From: Sphingobacterium sp. T2
Lineage (GTDB): Bacteria; Bacteroidota; Bacteroidia; Sphingobacteriales; Sphingobacteriaceae
Reading direction: 5' to 3'
Assembly (NCBI RefSeq): GCF_000814685.1
Contig: NZ_JXAC01000006.1
Coordinates: 1-41,985 of the forward strand
DNA: 41,985 bases
Shown here: positions 30,303 to 41,406 of the stretch, piece after piece
How positions within the stretch are numbered: the stretch's first letter is position 1
How the letters are laid out: the number at the start of each line of letters is the position of its first letter
Translations under genes and position numbers: made by a program
Notes under the pieces: model-generated
Databases searched by the model: none
What the model was told of the DNA's origin: nothing
The model's input: only the letters and a program-made list of their open reading frames with translations

Positions 30303-30361
30303 AGAAATGTCATTTCGAGTACGTATAGGAATATTACCTATACGCTTGAAATGACATTTCT
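30303..30361. terminator. Long inverted repeat, bidirectional terminator or REP-like element
   Basis: AGAAATGTCATTTC (30303-30316) pairs with GAAATGACATTTCT (30348-30361), and inside it CGTATAGG pairs with CCTATACG around a 7-nt loop. Only a few bases between the stems fail to pair. It separates the nitroreductase and the convergent anti-sigma-like gene, whose stop codon touches the right arm. The arms are far longer than in the other terminators here. Confidence 0.8.
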
Positions 30362-30983
30362 ACTTTTTGGCATTGACCTTCAGAGAGAATACAGCTTCCT
30401 TACCCTTCCATTCCTCCTCTTCAAAAATTTGATTTAGCAGCCCATTTCTCACGTTAGAAACTGTAAGCTTCCCTCTCTCATCAAAAAGTAAGCGAACATG
30501 CTTCTCTCCCTCCTCAACAATATTATTTTCTAACCCTTTAGCAATACGTCCTTCAAGATGCTGCCACCCTTGCACCGGCTGGGCGTCACCGGCAGAAGGT
30601 ATAACCTGTACCACATACTCTTTGACCGACATAATCTCTACTTCCGTCAAGTCCGCCGTATTTTGGTTAGGTAGATATCGCATCAATATCAAGATACAAA
30701 CTATCAAAAACATAACACCGGCAGCCATACCCACAGCAAGGCGCTGCCAGCTATAGAAGCGCTTGCTGCGTTCCCCAGCCAAGGAGTCTACACGCGCGGC
30801 AAGCCGCTGCTGCAGCAAACTCAGCTGCTTGGCATCTACTCCCTGCTGCATCCTATACCCGTCTATCGCATCCTGCAAAAAAGGGTCTTCCAATGCCTCG
30901 CGTTCTAACGCATGCATCTCCTCCCGACTCATCAAGTCGTGGATGTAATTGTGAATACGAGATAATTGGTAGTTATTTTCCAT
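30360..30983 (-). CDS. Single-TM protein coupled to ECF sigma factor (probable anti-sigma)
   Basis: A 207-residue protein. The cytosolic N-terminus (about 1-80) includes IHDLMSREEMHALEREALED, then a TM segment (LAVGMAAGVMFLIVCILILM) and a periplasmic domain of about 110 residues. The C-terminal part HVRLLFDERGKLTVSNVRNG weakly resembles TonB C-terminal domains. The start overlaps the sigma gene by 11 nt, the usual arrangement of sigma and membrane anti-sigma genes. No zinc-binding ZAS motif is visible, so the anti-sigma role is inferred from context. Confidence 0.65.
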   Translation of the reverse strand: MENNYQLSRIHNYIHDLMSREEMHALEREALEDPFLQDAIDGYRMQQGVDAKQLSLLQQRLAARVDSLAGERSKRFYSWQRLAVGMAAGVMFLIVCILILMRYLPNQNTADLTEVEIMSVKEYVVQVIPSAGDAQPVQGWQHLEGRIAKGLENNIVEEGEKHVRLLFDERGKLTVSNVRNGLLNQIFEEEEWKGKEAVFSLKVNAKK

Positions 30984-31523
30984 GTTTTCTGTTCTCCATA
31001 CATATTTTGAGGTTGCGCTTGCCATTCTGGATGGCACTCTTCACCTTCCCTAAGTCCAACCCCGTCTCCTCGGCTATATCCTTATTAACATTTTTGCTCT
31101 AGGTAAGAAAAGACGTACGCAACGCTGCTGATCCGCATTCAACATTTCAAGACAATATTCCAGCATTTCAAAATCATGCTCTTCCCATTTTGTCTCCCCC
31201 TCAGCACTTAGCTTTCTCTCGCTTTCATAAAGGTTATCTTCAATATCTACCTGCTCAAACCTTTTGTCTTTACGTAGCTGCATTAGACAAAAGTTTTTAG
31301 CATATACATAAAGCCAGCTTTTAAAACTTTTTACTTCGTGTGTCCTTAACTTATCTATTAACTCTTCAAAAATTTGCATCACCGCATCCTGACTGCGCTC
31401 GGCATCCTGCAGATACTTATAACACACACCGTAAAGCAACGACATATAAGGAGCATACAGCTTGCCCAACACTTCTACACTTCCTGTAGCACGGTATCTG
31501 TCCAATAACTCCTTTTCGCTCAT
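30973..31523 (-). CDS. ECF-type RNA polymerase sigma factor (two frameshifts)
   Basis: Region 2 reads LGKLYAPYMSLLYGVCYKYL, SQDAVMQIFEELIDKL and KSFKSWLYVYAKNFCLMQLR. Region 4 starts LEMLNADQQRCVRLF; it then breaks, and with extra bases near 31104-31105 and 31084-31088 removed continues as CYKDIAEETGLDLGKVKSAI, a standard HTH. Repaired length is 182 residues. It lies 49 nt downstream of the YeiH-type exporter on the same strand and overlaps the single-TM partner. It may govern the operon it ends, or be read by a promoter of its own. Confidence 0.87.
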
Positions 31524-31572: not shown

Positions 31573-32826
31573 TTATCTAAACAAAATTAGCGCCACAAGA
31601 AGCGTAATGACAATATTAAAAGACTGCGCTATCAAAAACGCATATAAAGGCTTTTTGTTGCTTTGTTGAAACAGATCCTTGAAGTTTGTCTCCAGACCTA
31701 TAGAGGTAAAGGCCAGCACAAACCAAAGATTTTGTAGACTCTTCAGGCTGTCTTTAACCTGATTCGTAGTCTCCGGAGAGATTACGAAGGAGAAAAGTAA
31801 GGAGGCAAAGACAAACCCCAAAACAAACTTGGGAAAACGTTCCCAGATTACACGCAAGGTAGGTTTATCTTTCTTCGTCTCCTCGTCCACAGACTTAGAA
31901 TAAGTCCAATAGATACTGATGGCAAAGGCTGCTATTCCCAACAACACATTTTGAGAAAACTTCACTATAGTACTAATCTTCAAAGCTTCATCTCCTACCA
32001 AAGAGCCGGAAGCCACTACAGCTCCCGTAGTATCTATGGAACCTCCCAACCACGCTCCTGTCACTGCCTCGGATAGCCCCATCCATTCTGCTAGGTATGG
32101 CATTCCTATCATCATAGGTATCGCTGTTATAAGCACCAAAGAAATAACATAGGATAGTTTCTTGCTGTCCCCCTTTATAGCTCCGGAAGTAGCAATAGCT
32201 GCCGACACGCCACAAATAGATACAGCACTAGCCAACATCAGAGACATCTCCTTGTCTATCTTTAGCTTCTTACATACCCAAAAGGCGAAATACCATACCG
32301 AAAGCACTACCACTAGCGCCTGTATCAATCCCAAAGCCCCGGCTTTCAAAATATCCCCAAAGATGACTGTAGTGCCCAACAGGACCAACCCTATCTTAAC
32401 ATACATCTCCGTGTTGAGAGCCTCCCTAAACCAAGAAGGCAAAGAAAAAATATTACTAATAAGCAGCCCTATGGCCAAAGCAAAGATGACAGCTTCCAAA
32501 TTATAATCTTTCACTGTACTGTTTCCTGCCAGCAACAAGGCTAACACCGTCAGCACCGCTACCGAAGGAAACACTACAAGCAAAGATTTTACCGACTTAC
32601 CAAGCAATATAGCCCCAAGCAGTGCTATGGCATATACTGCTCCAAACTGAGTAAGTAAGTTGATGATGTTTTGAGCCGAAAAAATCTTCTCACTTAATTC
32701 TGTCCAGGAGGACCAACTGAAGGTAGGCTTCGGAACGATAATTCCTGCCAAAGCTAAAAAAATCGTTCCCAACCCCAAGATGACAACAACCCAATCTTCT
32801 GTAATGACAATCTTCTTTTCTGACAT
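31573..32826 (-). CDS. YeiH/UPF0324-family putative sulfate exporter
   Basis: A 417-residue inner-membrane protein with about eleven TM segments. Family motifs: CGVSAAIATSGAIKGD, MPYLAEWMGLS, GAWLGGSIDTTGAVVASGS and KFSQNVLLGIAAF. Family members are annotated as putative sulfate exporters, partly because they occur with sulfonate or sulfite metabolism genes; direct evidence is thin. It is the last metabolic gene of a run that includes a sulfite dehydrogenase, which fits sulfate export. It starts 3 nt after the SDR gene. Confidence 0.85.
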   Translation of the reverse strand: MSEKKIVITEDWVVVILGLGTIFLALAGIIVPKPTFSWSSWTELSEKIFSAQNIINLLTQFGAVYAIALLGAILLGKSVKSLLVVFPSVAVLTVLALLLAGNSTVKDYNLEAVIFALAIGLLISNIFSLPSWFREALNTEMYVKIGLVLLGTTVIFGDILKAGALGLIQALVVVLSVWYFAFWVCKKLKIDKEMSLMLASAVSICGVSAAIATSGAIKGDSKKLSYVISLVLITAIPMMIGMPYLAEWMGLSEAVTGAWLGGSIDTTGAVVASGSLVGDEALKISTIVKFSQNVLLGIAAFAISIYWTYSKSVDEETKKDKPTLRVIWERFPKFVLGFVFASLLFSFVISPETTNQVKDSLKSLQNLWFVLAFTSIGLETNFKDLFQQSNKKPLYAFLIAQSFNIVITLLVALILFR

Positions 32827-32829
32827 AAT

Positions 32830-33750
32830 TTAGTGTATATGTTTAGTTAGTTCTAAAAATGCTTCTTTAATCGTTGGAAATTTAAAAACAAACCCTTCAC
32901 GTACTGCTCTGCTGGAAGATACTGCATTAGTCTGTAAAATCATGTCGCTCTCTACCCCCTTAAAGTAGGCACCAACTTTGGCTAGAAAGGCCGGCAAAGG
33001 CAGTCCAAAAGAAATTTTATTAGCACGTTGCAGTTCCTTCATGAAGATTTTATTGCTTACCGGCAGAGGAACACAAGCATGATAGAGCGACGACGGATCC
33101 CGATGATGGATAATCCATAGCACCAAATTTATTAGGTCCACCTCATGGATCCAGCTTATCAACTGTTTTCCGTTTCCCGCCTTACCCCCCAATCCGAATC
33201 TTGTCAGCAGATTCAATTCCTTGAACATGCCAAAATCCTTGGACAACACGGGACTCAGCCGCAAACAAACCTGCCTTGTGGCGGGCAAGTGGAACATAAA
33301 AAAAGTCTTTTCCCATTCCTTGACAAGGTTGGCTAAGAAAGTATCTGCAAAACGAGTGCTCTCCTCATCGCTAAGCTGCTCAAGGCCCTCAAAAATAGAA
33401 GTTCCGGAAATGTTTATCCATAATCGCGGAGGTTCTTTCAATCCTCGAATGGCCTCTCCCAAGATGTATGTAGGCTTTATGCGTGAAGAGGTTAACGTCC
33501 TTCTGTTCTTCTCGGTAAACCTACATTGGATACTTTGCCCTGAAAGATTGATTAAAGTATCGCTCCCTTCCAATACCGACATCCATTCCCCCAACTGTTC
33601 ACCATCCCAAAGCACGTAAGAGAGGTTCTGGCGGTTGGAAGATTTAGTCGTGCGACTCAGTATAATGACTTCATAACCTTGCCTCAGAAGCTCCTCACTG
33701 AGCACTCTGCCGACGTTCCCTGTACCTCCGGCCAATATTATCTTTTTCAT
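32830..33750 (-). CDS. TIGR01777-family SDR/epimerase-like protein
   Basis: A 306-residue extended SDR with the Rossmann signature GGTGNVGRVL at the N-terminus, then LINLSGQSI, RIKPTYILGEAI and VCLRLSPVLSKDFG, and a C-terminal DUF1731-like end (AFLAKVGAYFKGVESDMILQ, VREGFVFKFPTI). Members are YfcH-like, with no agreed substrate. The start at 33750 is 1 nt after the upstream stop; an in-frame codon nine residues earlier would overlap that gene. Its part in this operon is unclear. Confidence 0.88.
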   Translation of the reverse strand: MKKIILAGGTGNVGRVLSEELLRQGYEVIILSRTTKSSNRQNLSYVLWDGEQLGEWMSVLEGSDTLINLSGQSIQCRFTEKNRRTLTSSRIKPTYILGEAIRGLKEPPRLWINISGTSIFEGLEQLSDEESTRFADTFLANLVKEWEKTFFMFHLPATRQVCLRLSPVLSKDFGMFKELNLLTRFGLGGKAGNGKQLISWIHEVDLINLVLWIIHHRDPSSLYHACVPLPVSNKIFMKELQRANKISFGLPLPAFLAKVGAYFKGVESDMILQTNAVSSSRAVREGFVFKFPTIKEAFLELTKHIH

Positions 33751-33751
33751 A

Positions 33752-35189
33752 TTAAGGCAAATTAATGATGATACCAAAATGATCTTTTAGTGCTGTTCGT
33801 GCAGCATGAAATCCACACATACCATGAACACCTCCTCCGGGAGGGGTGGCTGACGAACATATGTATACCGAACTGTCCGCAGTGCGGTAAGGTGTCAACG
33901 AGCGTGTCGGTCGTGTATAGAGCTGACCTATATCCATTATACCACCATTAATGTCTCCTCCTATGTAGTTGGGATTGTAGGCTTCCAACGCCTTAGGGCC
34001 GTACGTATGGCGTGCCAAAATAGTATCCTTAAAGCCAGGAGCAAAACGCTCGATCTGATTTTCAATAATGTCGGTGTAATCATATTCTGTTCCATTGGGA
34101 ACGTGACAGTAAGCCCATCCTGTATGTTTGCGTTCTGGAGCCCTACTTCGGTCAAACAGACTTTGTTGGGCAAAAAGCACAAAAGGGCGATCCACAACCT
34201 TTCCAGCGTGAGCTTCACGCTCCGCACGGGCAACATCAGCAAAAGTATTGCCTATGTGTACTGTGGCTGCCTGTCTCGCTCGTAAGTCCGTAAAGGGAGT
34301 AGGCTCCGACAAGGCCCAATCCACCTTAAACACCCCCATCCCTTGTCTATATTTCCTGAGTTGACGCTCATAAGAGGATGTAAAATTCAAACCCTTGATG
34401 GAAAGTATCTGCTTAGGGGTGAGATCTAGAATAAGAAGTCGATGATCGGGTAGTGCGGCACGGTCCTTCACCCACACCTCTGTCTGAATCTCTCCTCCCA
34501 ACTTGAGGTAATAGGTCGCTAAGGCATCAGCTATGCTCCTGAGATCCCCCGACAGGAATAGCCCAACCAAACCTATGCCCTACCGCCATCAACACCATCC
34601 CTATGGCCGACGTGGTCCAGTTGCTGAGCGGTTGAATACCGTGGGCCGCCATGCCTGCCCACAAAGCTTTAGCTCTCTCCGTCTTAAATCGTGAAGCGAC
34701 CCATGAGGCAGGTAGCACAGCCTTCCATCCAAACGATGCCAACAGTATAGGATCCTTCGGAAACCGTAGAGGACCCATTGTATCTTCTGCTAATATTTCC
34801 CAGCGGTCTACAACATCTTGTATGAGGCTACGGTAGAGCTTCCCATCATCACCAAGCTGTTGTATGGTCTCTTCCAGATTTCTGGATAGCACGGCCCCGG
34901 TTTCCCTTAATAGGGGATGAGCCGCCTCATATCTGGCAAAGGTGAAAGACAACCCATACTCCTCTAAAGGTAAAGACCGCATGAAAGGAGATGCCATAGC
35001 CATGGGATGTATAGCCGAACAGACGTCATGCTTATACCCCGACAGGGTAAGTTCTTTCGTGCGCAGCCCCCCTCCTATGGTGTCCGAACCCTCGACAAGC
35101 AATGTCGATAGCCCTTGCTGCTGCAAGGTTATTGCAGCTGCAAGTCCATTGGGGCCACTGCCCACTATGACCGCATCGTATTTTGCCAT
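33752..35189 (-). CDS. FAD-dependent oxidoreductase, phytoene-desaturase-like (frameshifted)
   Basis: An amine-oxidase/phytoene-dehydrogenase fold flavoprotein. The N-terminus has the FAD Rossmann motif VIVGSGPNGLAAAITL, then the Glu of the ribose-binding VEGSDTIGGGLRT; the C-terminus has SSVYICSSATPPGGGVHGM, the second FAD signature. One extra base at 34538-34539 breaks the frame; without it WAIPVGGSQ continues SIADALATYYLKLGGEI and the protein is 478 residues. No signal peptide, so cytosolic. It lies between the sulfite dehydrogenase and SDR genes. Members often act in carotenoid or retinoid chemistry, but nothing here supports that role. Confidence 0.85.
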
Positions 35190-35211: not shown

Positions 35212-36460
35212 TCATTTTATATCTTTTACGTCAGCCAAGAAAACTTCTCCTGACTTTTCTATATCCCAACCCACTATAGGATTGAAATGATTGCCTCCTT
35301 TTGAGTCTCTAGCTTTCACCAGTTGGCTATAGGTGGGCTGAATATATCCTGTTTCGTCAATGGCCTTGCTTAGGATACGAGTAGGTTTTCCATCCCAGTT
35401 CCACATGTATCGAAAAGCGGTATGTGCTTTCTCCAGAACAGGTCCCTGCAAGTGCGCCTCATTCCACTTACGACCATTATCCGTACTTATGAGCACCTTT
35501 TTTATTTTTCCTCTTCCACTCCAGGCAATGCCCCTTATTTCGTGCCATCCTTTTTCTATCTTTTTATGGATAGGCAGGATAGGTTATAATAGATCGCGCA
35601 TCCATGACAAGGCTGAACATCCTGATCTTACCCTTTGCTATCTTTTCTGTGTACTTTGATGTTTCTTCCCTTGTCATAAAAGGCTTTTCAGAAAGTTCTA
35701 TTCTCCTCAGCCATTTTATCTGTGTATTTCCTTCGAACCCCGGAATCACTAATCGCATAGGGTAGCCTTGCTGCGGTCGTATCGGCTCTCCATTCTGTGC
35801 ATAAGCTATCATCGCTTCTGCCAAAGCTTCTTTGAGCGGTACACTACGGGCCATCAAAGCGCCATCTGCTCCCTCAGCAAGAAACCATTCCGCTTGAGGC
35901 TTAATACCGGCTTCCTCAAGGATGGTAGAGAGTAACACCCCGGTCCATTCACTCTGGCTGGTAAGCCCACAAACTTCCTGTGGTGTCATTTCCCTTTTTC
36001 CATATCTAAAATTCCCCGAACATTCTATAAAACAAATGCGTGTTACCGAAGGATATCTTTTTAAATCTTTCAGCTTCAACACCAAAGGTTGTTCTACCAA
36101 GCCGTGAATGAGGAGCTCGTGCTTTTCTGGATCTATTTCCGGTATTCCGGCATGATGCCTTTCGAAGTGAAGATCTGAAGGTGTAATGGTGCCATACAGA
36201 TCCTGAAGTGGTGTACGGGCCGCTGTTGTCGATGTAATCTTCTGCAGACGTTCATATTTAGAGCGATAACCTGCCTTATCAGGGCCACGCCCCTGCACCT
36301 TCGAGGGATCCAACACAATTTTGGTGTCCTTGTCTGGTTCGATGATTCGGTTGTTCCACATTTTTACCACTACAAAAGCTACTGCTACGCCCAGCAGAAC
36401 ACCCACCATCCAACGCTTAAAAAGCCTTCTCCAATATACTTTTGTGTCCATTCTAATCAT
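35212..36460 (-). CDS. SoxC-like molybdopterin sulfite dehydrogenase (frameshifted)
   Basis: A sulfite-oxidase-family enzyme that oxidises sulfite to sulfate in the periplasm. The start holds a twin-arginine-like RRLFK (11-15) and a hydrophobic anchor (about 17-34). The Moco domain has the ligand Cys in FIECSGN (C147), SEWTGVLLSTILEEAGI, then RPQQGYPMRLVIPGFEGNTQ and IKWLRRIEL, which are typical of SoxC. The dimerisation domain follows, with IRGIAWSGRGKIKKVLISTD. One extra C at 35568-35569 breaks the join; repaired length is 415. The cytochrome c gene ends 1 nt upstream, which matches SoxCD or SorAB pairs. Confidence 0.9.
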
Positions 36461-36461
36461 A

Positions 36462-37073
36462 TTATTTGATTTCGTTTCCTCCTCTACGGTCGTCCAGCAC
36501 AAAACGAGACTTTGCAGGCATCTCGATCTGGGGAAGGGTATTGGCATTCACAGGATATTCTTCCTCAATAATCTTATTCCGATATAAAAGGTAGGCAGTC
36601 ACATCATAGACCTCTTGGTCACTAAGGGAGCCGGGAGCATTGAAAGGCATAGCTCTGCGCACATAATCGAATATTGTTGTAGCATAAGGCCAATAATTAC
36701 CAATGGTATTGCGCTTGGAAGTGTCTGTAACGACAAGTTGATCATATGGTCCTTCATGACCGTTTTTGCCATGGCAGGAAGCACATTTAGCCAAATAAAT
36801 TTCCTTTCCTCTGCTCGCTAGTCCCTCTCCTTTTGGCAACCTCTCCCCCTGCGGATTGACATCGATATCCCATTTTTTTATCCTTTCCTTGGAAGCTTGC
36901 CTGCCAATACCGAACTTTTGAGGCCATGTTTTCTGATAAAGGTCCAGATTTTCTTTCCACTCTCCTTCTCCGGAAGGAGCAGCATAAGATACATTCTCTG
37001 CTTGCCGGTCTGAACAGCTTATCGCCAAAAGTAATGCCCCTACGACAAACAAGAACGAAGATATCTTATTCAT
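36462..37073 (-). CDS. Lipoprotein c-type cytochrome, electron acceptor of the SoxC-like enzyme
   Basis: A 203-residue monohaem cytochrome c. Signal peptide with lipobox LLAISC (C20), haem-binding CASCH (C97, C100, H101) and probable axial Met in RRAMPFNAPG (M142). The C-terminal DVTAYLLYRNKIIEEEYPVN is typical of SoxD/SorB-like cytochromes. It likely takes electrons from the sulfite dehydrogenase encoded directly downstream. I chose the ATG at 37073, which overlaps the upstream stop (ATGAATAA); an alternative start lies 4 codons earlier. Confidence 0.92.
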   Translation of the reverse strand: MNKISSFLFVVGALLLAISCSDRQAENVSYAAPSGEGEWKENLDLYQKTWPQKFGIGRQASKERIKKWDIDVNPQGERLPKGEGLASRGKEIYLAKCASCHGKNGHEGPYDQLVVTDTSKRNTIGNYWPYATTIFDYVRRAMPFNAPGSLSDQEVYDVTAYLLYRNKIIEEEYPVNANTLPQIEMPAKSRFVLDDRRGGNEIK

Positions 37074-38702
37074 ACTGTCCAGCAACTAATTTTCCCGGAG
37101 AAATCTTGTAATCTTTTTTTACCCTATCCAACACCACATACAAGGAATCTCTATTTTCATCAACACCACGTAAAATTACTCGCTCCCCATCATTTTGTAT
37201 GGTATAGCGCACGACGAATCGTTGTCTTATCTCTCTTTTTGCCAATTCATCCGCTTTAGCAAATTCACGCAGCCTACGTGTGGTTCGGGCCTTAGGATGA
37301 ACATAATCTGCCTCATTTCCTAAACGCCGCTTCACCTCGGCCGGAATCCACTCTTCCAATGATATGGTAGGACCATATATCTTCACATCATTCAGGGATA
37401 TATAGTTACGTACCCCTCTGTCTCCTCCTGAATCTGCCGTCTTATTGCGCTCATCCGGAATGGGCTTGTACTTATCCTCAAGGTAAAGTGTTTGGGTTAC
37501 TGTATCTATATAATAGTGAAAAGCTCTTTGACCACCCGCCACTCCCGAAATTTCGAAAGTACGGTTGACATCTCTTTTAGGATCACCGCCACCGTTGGAT
37601 AAATCCAAAGGCAGAGGACGGTGAACTTTGAAGGTCAACGTAGACCATTTTTCAAAGGTGGCTGACTGCCATCTTACAGTATCCAGAGGATCGTAAGGGT
37701 GTTCTACACCGTTGAGCTTAAACTCACTAACAGCATAATTGCCGCGGAAGGCCTTATATCCTGCCGTGGAGGGCTGCTTATAAGGATCATAACGGAAATC
37801 CAAGTATTGCAGATAAAAGAAAACACCAATGAATAAGAAGATAGTTAGCGCCTTTAAGCTATATCTAACAACCTGCAAGGGCGTAGCAAAGACAGGAAAA
37901 AATAACGATACCTGCGCAGGAATCTCTTTGACGAAAACCTTATAGAAAGGCTTATAGTAGGGTACAAGGAGGAAAAGACTTAACAGCACGAAATAGGAAC
38001 TATAAACGTGCACACCACCATCGTAGGCAAAGTTTACGACCACTATGGCTCCCAAGGCCCCCACAAGTAATGCCGCTCCTATTGCTACGGTTCTGCGGAA
38101 AAACAACAACGCTCCCGCACCAACCTCCAATACTCCAGCAAACACTTGGTACCACGGCACTATCCCAAAGGACAACCAGAAAATTTTCTGGGCTGTCAAG
38201 TCACCATAATCCGTATCTAATAATCCCAAAGAAGGATAAGGCATCTGCACAGGAAACAGCTTCGTAAAACCAAAGCCTATAATCCCTAGCCCCGCACGGT
38301 AACGGACAATAACATTAAGCCAGTAGTATAACCTCTCGTATTCCTTACGCTCCCTTTTAAGAATTTTGACTATGAGAGTCCATAAAAGACCTGCTATCGT
38401 TGCAAAGATCAAGGTGTTCACCCATATGCTGTAACCGAGCAGACGTGCTCCAAACGTAGTGGTGCCGAAATAATTGACTCCCGAACCAAAACGACATATA
38501 TCATACAAATCGCGGTAGTCCAGATTCCACCAGTCTATATTCACACATGGGTATACCAATGGGGATTATTGGGGATAGCAATAAGAATGAAAAATATAAA
38601 GCTTATGCGAAACAATATACGTTGCCATTGTGGCCACTGCTTCCTGTCGACATAAGAAGTGTCATGATTAATTACTGCTGTATCTATTTTTTTCTTAGAC
38701 AT
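37066..38702 (-). CDS. DoxX-family membrane protein with C-terminal unknown domain, copy 1 (frameshifted)
   Basis: About 545 residues once one missing base near 38541-38551 is restored. The start reads MSKKKIDTAVINHDTSYVDR, then about ten TM segments. A DoxX-type core with GIIGFGFTKLFPVQMPYPSL, YQVFAGVLEVGAGALLFFRR and YDGGVHVYSSYFVLLSL is followed by a periplasmic or cytosolic domain of about 200 residues with AFRGNYAVSEFKLNGVEHPY and ERVILRGVDENRDSLYVVLD. DoxX relatives include the thiosulfate:quinone oxidoreductase subunit DoxD, but most have unknown function. The next gene upstream is a paralogue. The stop overlaps the cytochrome start. Confidence 0.8.
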
Positions 38703-38723
38703 AACTTTACAGATTTGATTTGG

Positions 38724-40065
38724 TTAGAGTTTATACCCTACTTTTCTTCTTCCTACTTTCTTGACTTCTTCCAATAAATATTTCTTTTTTGCATCTACCA
38801 GAAGAACTTGCAGGGAGTCCCCTCGACCGTTGGTTCCTCTTAGTAGTACGGCATTGCTGTCGGGCTGTGACAGCTGTAATCTATAGCTACCAGCGATATA
38901 ATGCTTATTTCTATTAGCTAGAGTAAGTATGGAATCCTGCTCACTAAATTGAAAAGTATAATACAGCCGGTCACCCACCTGTGTATATTCGTAATTGCGT
39001 AGGCTGTCTTGACGCGGCCACAATCTACTTGCCGGCTCCTCGACCACGATGCTTTCGTTCACACGAATACTCAATGTATTCCACCTTTCGAAGACCACAT
39101 CTTTCCACCTTCCATTCTCAAAAGGTGAAGGAGCTATGGTATCTCCGTTCAGTACAAAGTCTTTCACCCAATATTTTCCTACAATGCCTTCCAAACCTTT
39201 ATGTTGAGGGTAAAAAAGGTTTTGCTGCTGCCGAAAGGCAGAATAACTTTTGAATCCCACCACAAAGAAAAAAACCACTGCAAAGGAGATCTTACCCACA
39301 ACCCTTACCTTCTTCCATCGCGAATGATTCCACTCCAAATGCCAAGCTGCAGGCTGCGTAAAGGCCTTATGGTAGATCAACCTTCCAAGACGCCCCAAAT
39401 CATACACAAACACGGGCAACGACAGCAGTACTATATAGGTAGAAACAAGAAAATCACCACCTTCATACGCCAGATCTGCCAAGAAAACATTGCCATAAAA
39501 GGGGATGATGAAGATTACGCCAAGAAATGCTGTCCTTCGAAATAATAAAAGGATGGCCGCAGCAACCTCCACAATGCCGAGGAAGACAAGATAGGCTGGA
39601 GCGGCAGACAGACTCAACAACAGATGCTTCCAATGCTGAAAATAGCCATAGCCAGTGTTAAGATGGCTCAGAGAAATCTCCGGAACATACAGAGGAAAAA
39701 CTTTCAGAAAGCCTGCAACCAATAGAATCGAAGCAAGTTTATATCGCGAAAAAATGCGTAGGTAATAGTACCACTTGTTCAATTCCAGATGAGGCTGCCT
39801 GCTTCGCCACAACAAGGCCAGTGCCACAGCTATGCCTAGATAGATAGTCCAATCCAATATCGTGGAGTTCTTGTCAAAAAAATGAGGAAGAAAGGTGACC
39901 AAGATTATAAAAATCTATCAAAAGATACTGCCAGCTCAAGCTTAACAGGATAGAATAAAAGTCCTGCTGGATAGGGATACTCAGCAATACTATCCACAAC
40001 AAAGATATCCGTAAAAGGATGTCTTTAAAACTATTACTTGCGTATATTTTTTTTACTCGTGACAT
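38724..40065 (-). CDS. DoxX-family membrane protein with C-terminal unknown domain, copy 2 (frameshifted)
   Basis: A shorter paralogue of the downstream gene: 446 residues once an extra base at 39901-39902 is removed, so that LLIDFYNL continues VTFLPHFFDKN. Matching segments include YKLASILLVAGFLKVFPLYV, VEVAAAILLLFRRTAFLG and AYEGGDFLVSTYIVLLSL in the membrane part, and EGIVGKYWVKDFVLNGDTIA, VVFERWNTLSIRVN and VLLRGTNGRGDSLQVLLVDA in the C-terminal domain. It starts 12 nt after the SusD stop. Function unknown; quinone reduction or substrate handling is inferred from DoxD and the neighbours. Confidence 0.8.
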
Positions 40066-40077
40066 AGGTATTGTTTT

Positions 40078-41406
40078 TTATAGTGAGTAACCGGGATTTT
40101 GCTTCAATACATGGTCTGCAAGAATCTGACTATAAGGAATAGGAAGCAGCAGCTTATAATCTTCGGTAAAACCCAAGACGCTCTTAGCTCTTCCTGTACG
40201 CACTAGGTCGAACCATCTATGTGCTTCCAAGGCGAATTCCAAGCGTCTTTCCTCCTCGATAGCTATGAGCAGATCCTCCTTGCTCTCAAAGTTCAATGGT
40301 TGAAGCTGAGCTCTACTTCTAACCCTATTCAGATCTTGCTGCGCTACCTCAATCTGGTTCAGCTGTGCCAGAGCTTCCGCACGGATAAGGAAGAGCTCTG
40401 CTATACGTACGATATAAGTTGGGTCTGTGGCCGGACTGCGATAATAGAGGTTTCCATACCATCGGTCTTGGTTATCCTTGGCGATTAAAGCACTACGTGC
40501 TCCTCCCTTGGTTGGGTCGTTCAACAGTGTCACCAAAGCGGCATTAGGAGCCCACTGCCGCGTACCGCCATTATTCTGGGGCTGCCACTGTCCGCGATGA
40601 GGATTTAATTCATTAGCACTGTAAAACAGTTCAAAAACTGATTCTTTTGTTCCTACTACATTGTCGACAAAAAAATTATAATAAGGATTTACCAACTCAT
40701 ACTCCGGATCATCAATAAGCAGAGAAGCATAAGCTTGTGCTTGCTGCCACTCCTTACGATAGAGAAAATAGCGGGCCTTAAGTGCCTGAACGGTCTTTTT
40801 GGTAATGCTGAAGCGATCGGTAGTTGAGGGGAGCAGCCCTTCCGCTTCATTAAGGTCGGACAGGACCTGTAAGTATGTTTCTTCTGCCGTAGCCCTCGGA
40901 ATCCCTACATTTTGCCCTACCCTATCTGTCGGTTCTGTAATGATAGGTACCCCACCCCATACACGTACCAAGTCAAAGTAAGCCAATCCTCGTATGGCCA
41001 ATGCTTGCCCCAGCACCTGATTTCTTACTGTAGTGGATATACTTTCTGACGAGATGGTCTTCAACGTTTTGATGATACTGTTAGCTCTGTTGATAGTCTT
41101 ATAGATTCCTGACCAAGTGGAAGAAATGGTTGGATTCTCAGGCTTCACACGGTGATTGATAAATTCCTGCACTTGCGATTGGGAGCCTGTCCATTCTATG
41201 TTGTCGCCAGATAAATAAGCGATAGACTGATAGTTTACGCTATAATAATCACGAAGGGCACTGTATGCTCCGTTCAATGCCGCCTTGGCAGATGTTTCGT
41301 CCACGATAACAGATTCTCCTGAGATCGAGGATTTGGGCTCTACCTCTAGGAAGGAAGTGCAAGCGGTCAACCCAAACAAAAAGAATATGTAGATAACGTT
41401 TTTCAT
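40078..41406 (-). CDS. SusD/RagB-family outer-membrane lipoprotein
   Basis: Intact, 442 residues. Signal peptide with lipobox GLTAC (C16), then FLEVEPKSSIS, AALNGAYSALRDYY, ALAIRGLAYFDLVRVWGGVP, RIAELFLIRAEALAQL and the C-terminal LLLPIPYSQILADHVLKQNP, all standard for the family. It lies 4 nt after a SusC C-terminus. The usual role is ligand capture for SusC; the genes behind it suggest a sulfur-containing ligand instead of, or attached to, a glycan. That is inference. Confidence 0.95.
   Translation of the reverse strand: MKNVIYIFFLFGLTACTSFLEVEPKSSISGESVIVDETSAKAALNGAYSALRDYYSVNYQSIAYLSGDNIEWTGSQSQVQEFINHRVKPENPTISSTWSGIYKTINRANSIIKTLKTISSESISTTVRNQVLGQALAIRGLAYFDLVRVWGGVPIITEPTDRVGQNVGIPRATAEETYLQVLSDLNEAEGLLPSTTDRFSITKKTVQALKARYFLYRKEWQQAQAYASLLIDDPEYELVNPYYNFFVDNVVGTKESVFELFYSANELNPHRGQWQPQNNGGTRQWAPNAALVTLLNDPTKGGARSALIAKDNQDRWYGNLYYRSPATDPTYIVRIAELFLIRAEALAQLNQIEVAQQDLNRVRSRAQLQPLNFESKEDLLIAIEEERRLEFALEAHRWFDLVRTGRAKSVLGFTEDYKLLLPIPYSQILADHVLKQNPGYSL

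Follow-up and report, generated by a model that had tools for sequence, protein, structure and literature searches.

The window analysed here, a stretch of 41,985 nucleotides from Sphingobacterium sp. T2 (contig NZ_JXAC01000006.1), carries near its end two adjacent minus-strand genes for membrane proteins, named DX-A and DX-B (Table 1). The DX pair is conserved and is built of known kinds of parts. The main open reading frames (ORFs) encode 392 residues in DX-A and 497 in DX-B, which by BLASTP share 30% identity over 306 residues (E 5e-31), the C-terminal segment aligning separately. DX-A and DX-B are therefore diverged paralogs, with a similarity far above chance. An initial annotation, made from the sequence letters, had reported tandem paralogous genes, and both ORFs lie where it had placed them, with the shared motifs that it quoted present in both. 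The length difference of about 100 residues that it noticed is confirmed; the longer protein is the product of the downstream gene, DX-B, which has an insert within the C-terminal barrel.

The DX-A/DX-B pair and its predicted architecture

Both genes are frameshifted in the window. The frame of DX-A is broken near 39.88 kb, with the start codon and the N-terminal helices in another frame that begins at 40065, and that of DX-B near 38.55 kb, with the start codon and first helices in another frame from 38702. Intact relatives in another locus, L004, encode 448 residues (DX-A) and 549 residues (DX-B). Compared with intact homologs, the SoxC and CrtO-like genes (35.56 and 34.54 kb), a sigma-factor gene (31.09 kb) and a gene at 23.89 kb are also frameshifted, and SusC shows an apparent frameshift near 41.96 kb, judged from few bases. 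Since six genes of several operons, and apparently SusC, are affected, assembly error is likelier than decay of the DX locus, and the frameshifts are probably of that origin, as judged from the contig sequence and not from reads. The pseudogene interpretation of the pair was set aside, since genes elsewhere in the window are frameshifted as well.

A contig search for relatives gave 13 loci with both genes, from Sphingobacterium and Olivibacter. Alignment A1 combined DX-A from 12 of these 13 first-found loci (L015 omitted) with the window ORF and 11 paralogs, and alignment A2 combined DX-B from all 13 loci with the window ORF and 10 paralogs. The set for profiles and the tree consisted of 129 of the 143 cluster members, limited to 380-640 residues and free of duplicates and of the window. 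In a FastTree phylogeny rooted on 15 single genes, the 54 first-position genes fall without exception into one clade (support 0.996) and the 60 genes in last or middle position into a second, separate one (support 1.0); the node uniting both pair clades against the single genes has a support of only 0.334. The set used for gene order and neighbourhood comprises 53 distinct pair loci (58 less 5 duplicates, L077-L081). The intergenic gap has a median of 16 bp, and the second gene is the longer one in 52 of the 53 loci. From these sequences the pair looks like an old duplication, and the two order-fixed types would fit non-interchangeable subunits of a heteromer. Tandem runs of three to four DX genes also occur (L115 7138-12756, L109, L111 and L015), and five middle copies fall in the DX-B clade. 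Since full-length relatives exist as single genes in Bacteroidota, the expression "large fusions" used in the initial annotation is a loose term.

AlphaFold models of the two chains, with a mean predicted local distance difference test (pLDDT) value of 79.8 for DX-A and 73.0 for DX-B, each consist of seven membrane helices and a C-terminal beta-barrel, which agrees with the shared extra-membrane domain proposed before. With transmembrane (TM) ends set by hand, Lys and Arg in loops number 7 inside versus 2 outside in DX-A, and 15 versus 5 in DX-B. This basic-residue bias indicates an inside N-terminus, so the barrel of both proteins is predicted to lie in the periplasm, outside the inner membrane. 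The DX-A barrel covers residues 294-430, with pLDDT of 83-93 except in 341-370, and its model is the eight-stranded meander barrel of lipocalins and calycins, with a best Foldseek E of 0.0019. VIA, which re-examines the ranking of Foldseek, gave Z 9.6 to a designed barrel and 9.0 to lipocalins, among them 4qrl of Bacteroides; the higher value is only modestly above the 7-8 that models lacking a clear match usually reach. The match for DX-B was weaker (VIA Z up to 7.7). The barrel is interrupted by a median of 84 residues (range 22-126) in last-position genes, versus a median of 22 in first-position genes. Pfam lipocalin profiles did not match the DX chains. The initial annotation had regarded membership of the C-terminal domain in a known family of unrelated function as speaking against its proposal; the domain matched no sequence family in Pfam or NCBIfam, and the predicted lipocalin-like match indicates a fold, fixing no function.

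Searches of Pfam, NCBIfam and PDB sequences with the pair gave no family above cut-off, and PDB-sequence matches to seipin and polo kinase were dismissed as chance (E 0.56 or more). Foldseek with the whole models found nothing at E 0.001 or better, in searches where the barrel dominates the ranking and the TM core is scarcely probed. Its top rank for DX-B was gamma-carboxylase, at E 0.05; the enzyme is absent from the VIA list for DX-B, an absence that excludes nothing. For the TM core of DX-B, VIA placed the assembly factor NACHO first, matched at residues 124-252 with Z 7.8 and a root-mean-square deviation of 4.0 over 113 aligned residues.

Relation to the DoxX superfamily and to HTTM proteins

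The DoxX name given in the initial annotation holds at the superfamily level and not at the Pfam cut-off. Against 23.6 bits required for DoxX (PF07681), DX-A of L004 scores 14.3, and neither DX-B nor the window ORFs match. At the clan level, homology of the TM core to the DoxX superfamily was found via short homologs and the R...G..K...E...R pattern, of which the K and E positions align. A DX profile search found 15 such short homologs (137-253 residues, too small for the barrel), which align with the single-gene DX family at a profile E of 3e-24. Each of the 10 that were scanned matches at least one of DoxX, DoxX_2 and MauE, with E no higher than 0.051. For DoxX the best score was 2.6e-5 (L244, 25.2 versus 23.6 bits, the sole one over a cut-off), and the best scores for DoxX_2 (1.8e-5) and MauE (4e-5) stayed below theirs. 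The short homologs thus bridge the DX chains to these families and argue for superfamily membership.

Direct comparison of the broad DX profile gave E 6.7e-4 with DoxX (probability 27%), 1.3e-4 with a "DoxD" set (54%) and 6.1e-5 with HTTM (65%), the reversed-profile controls being at 0.34-0.53 and five unrelated families at 0.07-0.54. For long DoxX proteins (381-465 residues), three runs yielded E 0.065-0.17 and two 0.0015-0.0016, and with the short homologs the value was 1.6e-5. The "DoxD" profile contained one clear DoxD among 20 rows and mostly DoxX-like proteins.

The resemblance to vitamin-K-carboxylase-like (HTTM) proteins is weaker. Neither the genome of the window (searched at E 0.001) nor the L004 chains (matches listed at E up to 10) gave a match to the HTTM/VKGC profile PF05090. 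A single lysine is shared by 176 of the 177 broad DX members, and all 39 HTTM members have a lysine that is aligned with it in the profile comparison (E 6e-5, 65% probability, reversed control 0.53). Narrower profiles gave E 7e-4 to 4e-2; in some of these comparisons one of the 20 HTTM rows is a wrong-frame ORF, and the broad comparison used 39 length-filtered rows. The best local HTTM match of alignment A1 leaves the lysine outside. We take the HTTM motif lysine to be Lys218 of the human gamma-carboxylase. According to an excerpt of PMC9146348, Lys218 starts the reaction with reduced vitamin K. In addition, Glu170 is kept in 129 of 129 and Arg180 in 128 of 129 sequences of the DX alignment set.

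Gene neighbourhood and distribution

The genes around the pair in the window are collected in Table 1. Stretches around relatives were fetched by score and not at random (40 from 39 of the 47 Sphingobacteriaceae pair genomes, 20 phylum-wide and 20 for short-homolog or divergent genes), and a gene was counted as near when it lay within 10 kb and inside the fetched stretch.

Table 1. Genes of the DX locus in the window, listed from the contig end inwards
Feature	Position	Strand	Main ORF
SusC-like TonB-dependent transporter, C-terminal end, cut by contig end	41411..41985	-	
SusD-like outer-membrane lipoprotein, directly upstream of the pair	40078..41406	-	
DX-A, first gene of the pair; DoxX-superfamily protein, predicted to have seven TM helices and a lipocalin-like barrel at the C-terminus	38724..40065	-	38724-39902
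DX-B, DX-A paralog with an insert of about 60-100 residues inside the predicted barrel	37066..38702	-	37066-38559
Cytochrome c, lipoprotein-like N-terminus, overlaps the end of DX-B	36462..37085	-	
SoxC-type sulfite/sulfane dehydrogenase, two frames	35212..36547	-	
CrtO/phytoene-desaturase-like FAD oxidoreductase, two frames	33752..35189	-	
TIGR01777 epimerase-like protein	32830..33777	-	
YeiH-type putative sulfate/sulfite exporter (PF03601)	31573..32826	-	

The most constant neighbours are SusC and SusD, each near 52 of the 53 pairs and both directly upstream in 49; L082, at a contig end, has neither. The CrtO-like flavoprotein follows (42/53), then YeiH (34/53), SoxC and cytochrome c (27/53 each), the TIGR01777 protein (13/53) and a carrier of the MFS type (3/53). 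The assignment of SoxC relies on an intact relative (L004:12104-13351), which passes the TIGR04555 cut-off of 420 with 475.9 bits; the broken window gene reaches 333. A metallo-beta-lactamase/rhodanese protein (MBL-rhodanese) is near seven pairs, never together with SoxC and in no case with YeiH (0/7). One of these proteins is similar to PDB 3tp9 (E 5e-60), with a lesser resemblance to BpPRF and to the persulfide dioxygenase ETHE1. All seven pair-linked MBL-rhodaneses have a Tat-like RR N-terminus, versus none of the four found in the 16 single-DX loci viewed (L055, L056, L059 and L063, inside 20 kb around the gene); they would thus probably act on the side of the barrel. In the single-DX loci SusC/SusD are never directly adjacent, and lie a few genes away in two (L054, L058).

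Overall, at least one of SoxC, MBL-rhodanese and YeiH is near 46 of the 53 pairs, and the sulfur context of the pair is real. The locus is a conserved import cluster of Sphingobacterium relatives, which probably serves to take up a sulfur compound and oxidise it. The sulfur-oxidation neighbourhood noticed in the initial annotation is therefore upheld, since SoxC also lies within about 10 kb of the pair in 25 of the 26 Sphingobacteriaceae genomes with both (hand count; in G428 it is on another contig). The partnership that the annotation proposed with the cytochrome c-SoxC couple is not supported as worded: both are near only part of the pairs and MBL-rhodanese occurs in others, which makes SoxC an exchangeable part and not a fixed partner. 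Wide occurrence of the pair without any sulfur-oxidation gene had been named as an argument against the proposal; the pair does occur without SoxC, and the 46 loci speak for the sulfur link.

Individual loci add further genes: a cysteine-dioxygenase-like gene with a rhodanese-repeat gene in L115 (four domains) and L097, a sodium:sulfate symporter in L097, a sulfatase with its FGE in L082, an aminotransferase in L092, and molybdenum-cofactor genes followed by cytochrome c and SoxC in L009. An S51/cyanophycinase-like peptidase gene is near 11 pairs (e.g., L091 7524-8465), between SusD and DX-A in 10 of them, and most of the members listed have secretion-type N-termini; its presence hints at a substrate that may be peptide-linked.

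Some features lie further from the pair. An extra TonB-dependent receptor (690-719 residues) is found between SoxC and the CrtO-like gene in L010 (13358-15430) and some Sphingobacterium loci. A sigma-70-family (ECF-type) gene with a partner of about 225 residues follows YeiH in the window (30360-31523, minus strand), in L006 (17340-18519) and in L104 (12932-14111); by position, they could regulate the island. A second SusD-like gene lies at the opposite end of the contig (window 186-1430, plus strand), with 27% identity to the SusD of the operon.

The pair was counted by hand in 47 of 201 Sphingobacteriaceae genomes. A strong SoxC (E 1e-95 or better) is present in 28 genomes of the family, of which 26 have the pair (G551 and G581 do not). 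Among the 47 pair genomes, 37 have YeiH no more than about 11 kb from the pair, seven have it elsewhere and three lack it. These linkage counts are uncorrected for relatedness of the genomes, so physical proximity is the stronger argument. Phylum-wide, 37 of 395 genomes match profile A1 at E 1e-10, and class-wide 51 of 345 match profile A3 at E 1e-8, both counts mixing pairs, full-length single genes and short homologs. A copy with the order SusC-SusD-DX-A-DX-B is found on the Hymenobacter volaticus plasmid unnamed6 (L259, 5879-16556), with SusC annotated in pieces and with carbonic anhydrase and bshB1 (bacillithiol) genes downstream. In this one annotated copy seen, DX-A is labelled "DoxX family protein", next to a "hypothetical protein". 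The plasmid collection also gave partial TM-core matches on a Deinococcus and a Streptomyces plasmid.

Possible function and comparison with known systems

The reading that we prefer, at a probability of roughly one in three (0.35), is that DX-A and DX-B form a two-subunit inner-membrane complex at the core of a SusCD-fed island for the utilisation of a sulfur compound in Sphingobacteriaceae, quinone-linked like thiosulfate:quinone oxidoreductase (TQO). From the computed pair, duplication, predicted architecture, neighbourhood and superfamily link we infer a heteromer, quinone use, a substrate and electron flow. A sulfur-containing substrate would pass the outer membrane through SusC/SusD, be bound in the periplasm by the two lipocalin-like barrels and be handed to the 7-TM cores. 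There, the near-invariant Lys (A-K125), Glu170 and Arg180 may line a menaquinone-binding pocket, and the complex would oxidise or activate the substrate, passing electrons to the quinone pool as TQO does. An exchangeable periplasmic module might then complete sulfur oxidation, consisting either of SoxC and cytochrome c or of an exported rhodanese protein that is persulfide-dioxygenase-like, and YeiH would export sulfite or sulfate. Since SusC/SusD and the pair are constant, mostly with the flavoprotein, and the oxidising end varies, the pair is better seen as the inner-membrane core of uptake or of a first conversion than as a part dedicated to SoxC. TQO passes electrons to quinones, as stated in a portion of PMC6335251, and the carboxylase uses reduced vitamin K; for these two reasons a quinone-linked enzyme is narrowly favoured.

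A more specific version goes further: the pair would be a new quinone-dependent membrane enzyme made of two subunits, a heteromeric relative of DoxX/DoxD and vitamin K carboxylase with the hallmark lysine and with periplasmic lipocalin barrels as substrate binders, fed by SusC/SusD with a sulfane or organic sulfur compound, in a modular Bacteroidota locus with interchangeable oxidising ends (SoxC-cytochrome c or the exported persulfide-dioxygenase-like rhodanese protein). That all these parts hold together is rather unlikely.

Several observations weigh against the quinone-linked sulfur enzyme. Seven of the 53 loci (L011, L013, L016, L047, L092, L097 and L103) have none of SoxC, MBL-rhodanese and YeiH, and 19 lack both SoxC and MBL-rhodanese. 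Seven further genomes have a SoxC-like gene of weaker score (E 1e-60 to 1e-68), in no case beside a pair, and of the 33 pairless genomes tested 27 have YeiH. Inorganic sulfur anions, given their small size, do not need SusCD. Regarding the family links, narrower DX profiles are weaker, so that the HTTM and DoxX/DoxD comparisons span E 6e-5 to 4e-2 overall, and the values of 0.065-0.17 for long DoxX proteins are no better than those of some unrelated families used as controls (0.07-0.14), reversed profiles being at 0.2-0.7. With one clear DoxD in the "DoxD" profile, closeness to TQO specifically is unsupported, and for DoxA (PF07680) and DoxD (PF04173) no match was listed at E up to 10 in searches whose HMMER filters drop many weak matches. 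The DoxX superfamily also includes non-redox proteins, e.g., NACHO. No Cys is conserved at 60% or more in first, last or single DX genes, and His reaches this level only at B-H233 (47 of 55 last genes) and at two positions in single genes (9/15); because of this poor conservation, no metal, haem or persulfide-carrying site is visible. Finally, the DX-A loop after the conserved lysine (residues 143-159) has a pLDDT under 50, so the supposed pocket is not captured in the model.

A close rival, which we regard as possible yet unlikely, is that DX-A/DX-B serve SusCD as its translocator in the inner membrane: the barrels would catch the substrate and the paired 7-TM cores would carry it into the cytoplasm. 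The CrtO-like flavoprotein would act there, joined in some loci by the cysteine-dioxygenase-like enzyme, before YeiH exports sulfite. The constant neighbours, an outer-membrane importer and the CrtO-like protein, suit this idea, as do the CrtO-like members listed, which begin directly with the nucleotide-binding motif and have no signal peptide, and the scarcity of MFS carriers. So does the frequency of YeiH near the pair: YeiH has been suggested, in an extract of PMC11582611, to export sulfite from the cytoplasm for oxidation in the periplasm, which implies that sulfur reaches the cytoplasm. Against it, Pfam assigns the pair to no transporter family, the Tat-like MBL-rhodaneses and SoxC appear periplasmic, and some loci have an MFS carrier of their own.

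An accessory or maturation complex for SusC/SusD or an exported enzyme, MauE-like or NACHO-like and neither catalytic nor transporting, is improbable. For it, MauE, a maturation factor, is among the nearest Pfam families of the short homologs, NACHO tops the VIA list for the TM core of DX-B, and the linkage to SusCD is strict; against it, the 16 single-DX loci viewed have no SusC/SusD directly adjacent, and the barrel suggests ligand binding. Still less probable is an incidental sulfur link, in which the island would import a non-sulfur substrate such as a peptide and the sulfur genes would be passengers. The S51/cyanophycinase-like gene and its usual place between SusD and DX-A, the seven loci without the three sulfur genes, the downstream genes of the Hymenobacter plasmid copy and the abundance of YeiH in pairless genomes would agree with it. 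Nevertheless, different sulfur enzymes fill the same place in different genomes, SoxC lies beside the pair in nearly all genomes with both, and L097, one of those seven loci, does have cysteine-dioxygenase-like and rhodanese genes.

Glycans and peptides are the main known cargo of SusC/SusD systems. No account of a SusCD-DoxX sulfur locus was found in the open-licence papers searched, and the pair looks undescribed. A conserved SusCD island around sulfur chemistry would point to an unrecognised use of reduced or organic sulfur in Bacteroidota. Since one lysine is kept in both DX and HTTM proteins, the pair also lends itself to the question of whether a common membrane core for quinone handling underlies DoxX proteins and gamma-carboxylase.

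Among known systems, DoxX, DoxX_2 and MauE (PF07681, PF13564, PF07291) have in common with the DX chains a membrane core with the conserved R, G..K, E, R/T pattern, from which DX differs by extra helices flanking the core, the periplasmic barrel, the fixed A/B order and scores below cut-off. The TQO DoxDA of Acidianus, Acidithiobacillus and Bacteroides shares the sulfur setting and two kinds of polypeptide or domain, and its membrane core falls with that of DX into one broad superfamily (E 1e-4 to 5e-3, by a profile that is mostly DoxX-like); unlike it, DX has no DoxA/DoxD Pfam match, has another C-terminal domain and is SusCD-linked. HTTM/gamma-carboxylase-like proteins (PF05090) of about 430-470 residues in Bacteroidota have a TM core and a G-x-x-K lysine that align with those of DX in the profile comparison, whereas the PF05090 profile misses DX and the C-terminal domain appears different. 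The small barrel of DX-A resembles the Bacteroides lipocalin-like proteins 4qrl (Z 9.0, 95 residues) and 5byp (Z 8.0, 94 residues), which differ in that the DX barrels are membrane-tethered and match no Pfam lipocalin, DX-B having a large insert and Z 7.0 and 6.4. At the level of the locus, the SoxC equivalog, cytochrome c and YeiH are shared with SoxC and YeiH systems, and it is their combination with SusCD and the DX pair that sets this locus apart from the known SoxC and YeiH settings.

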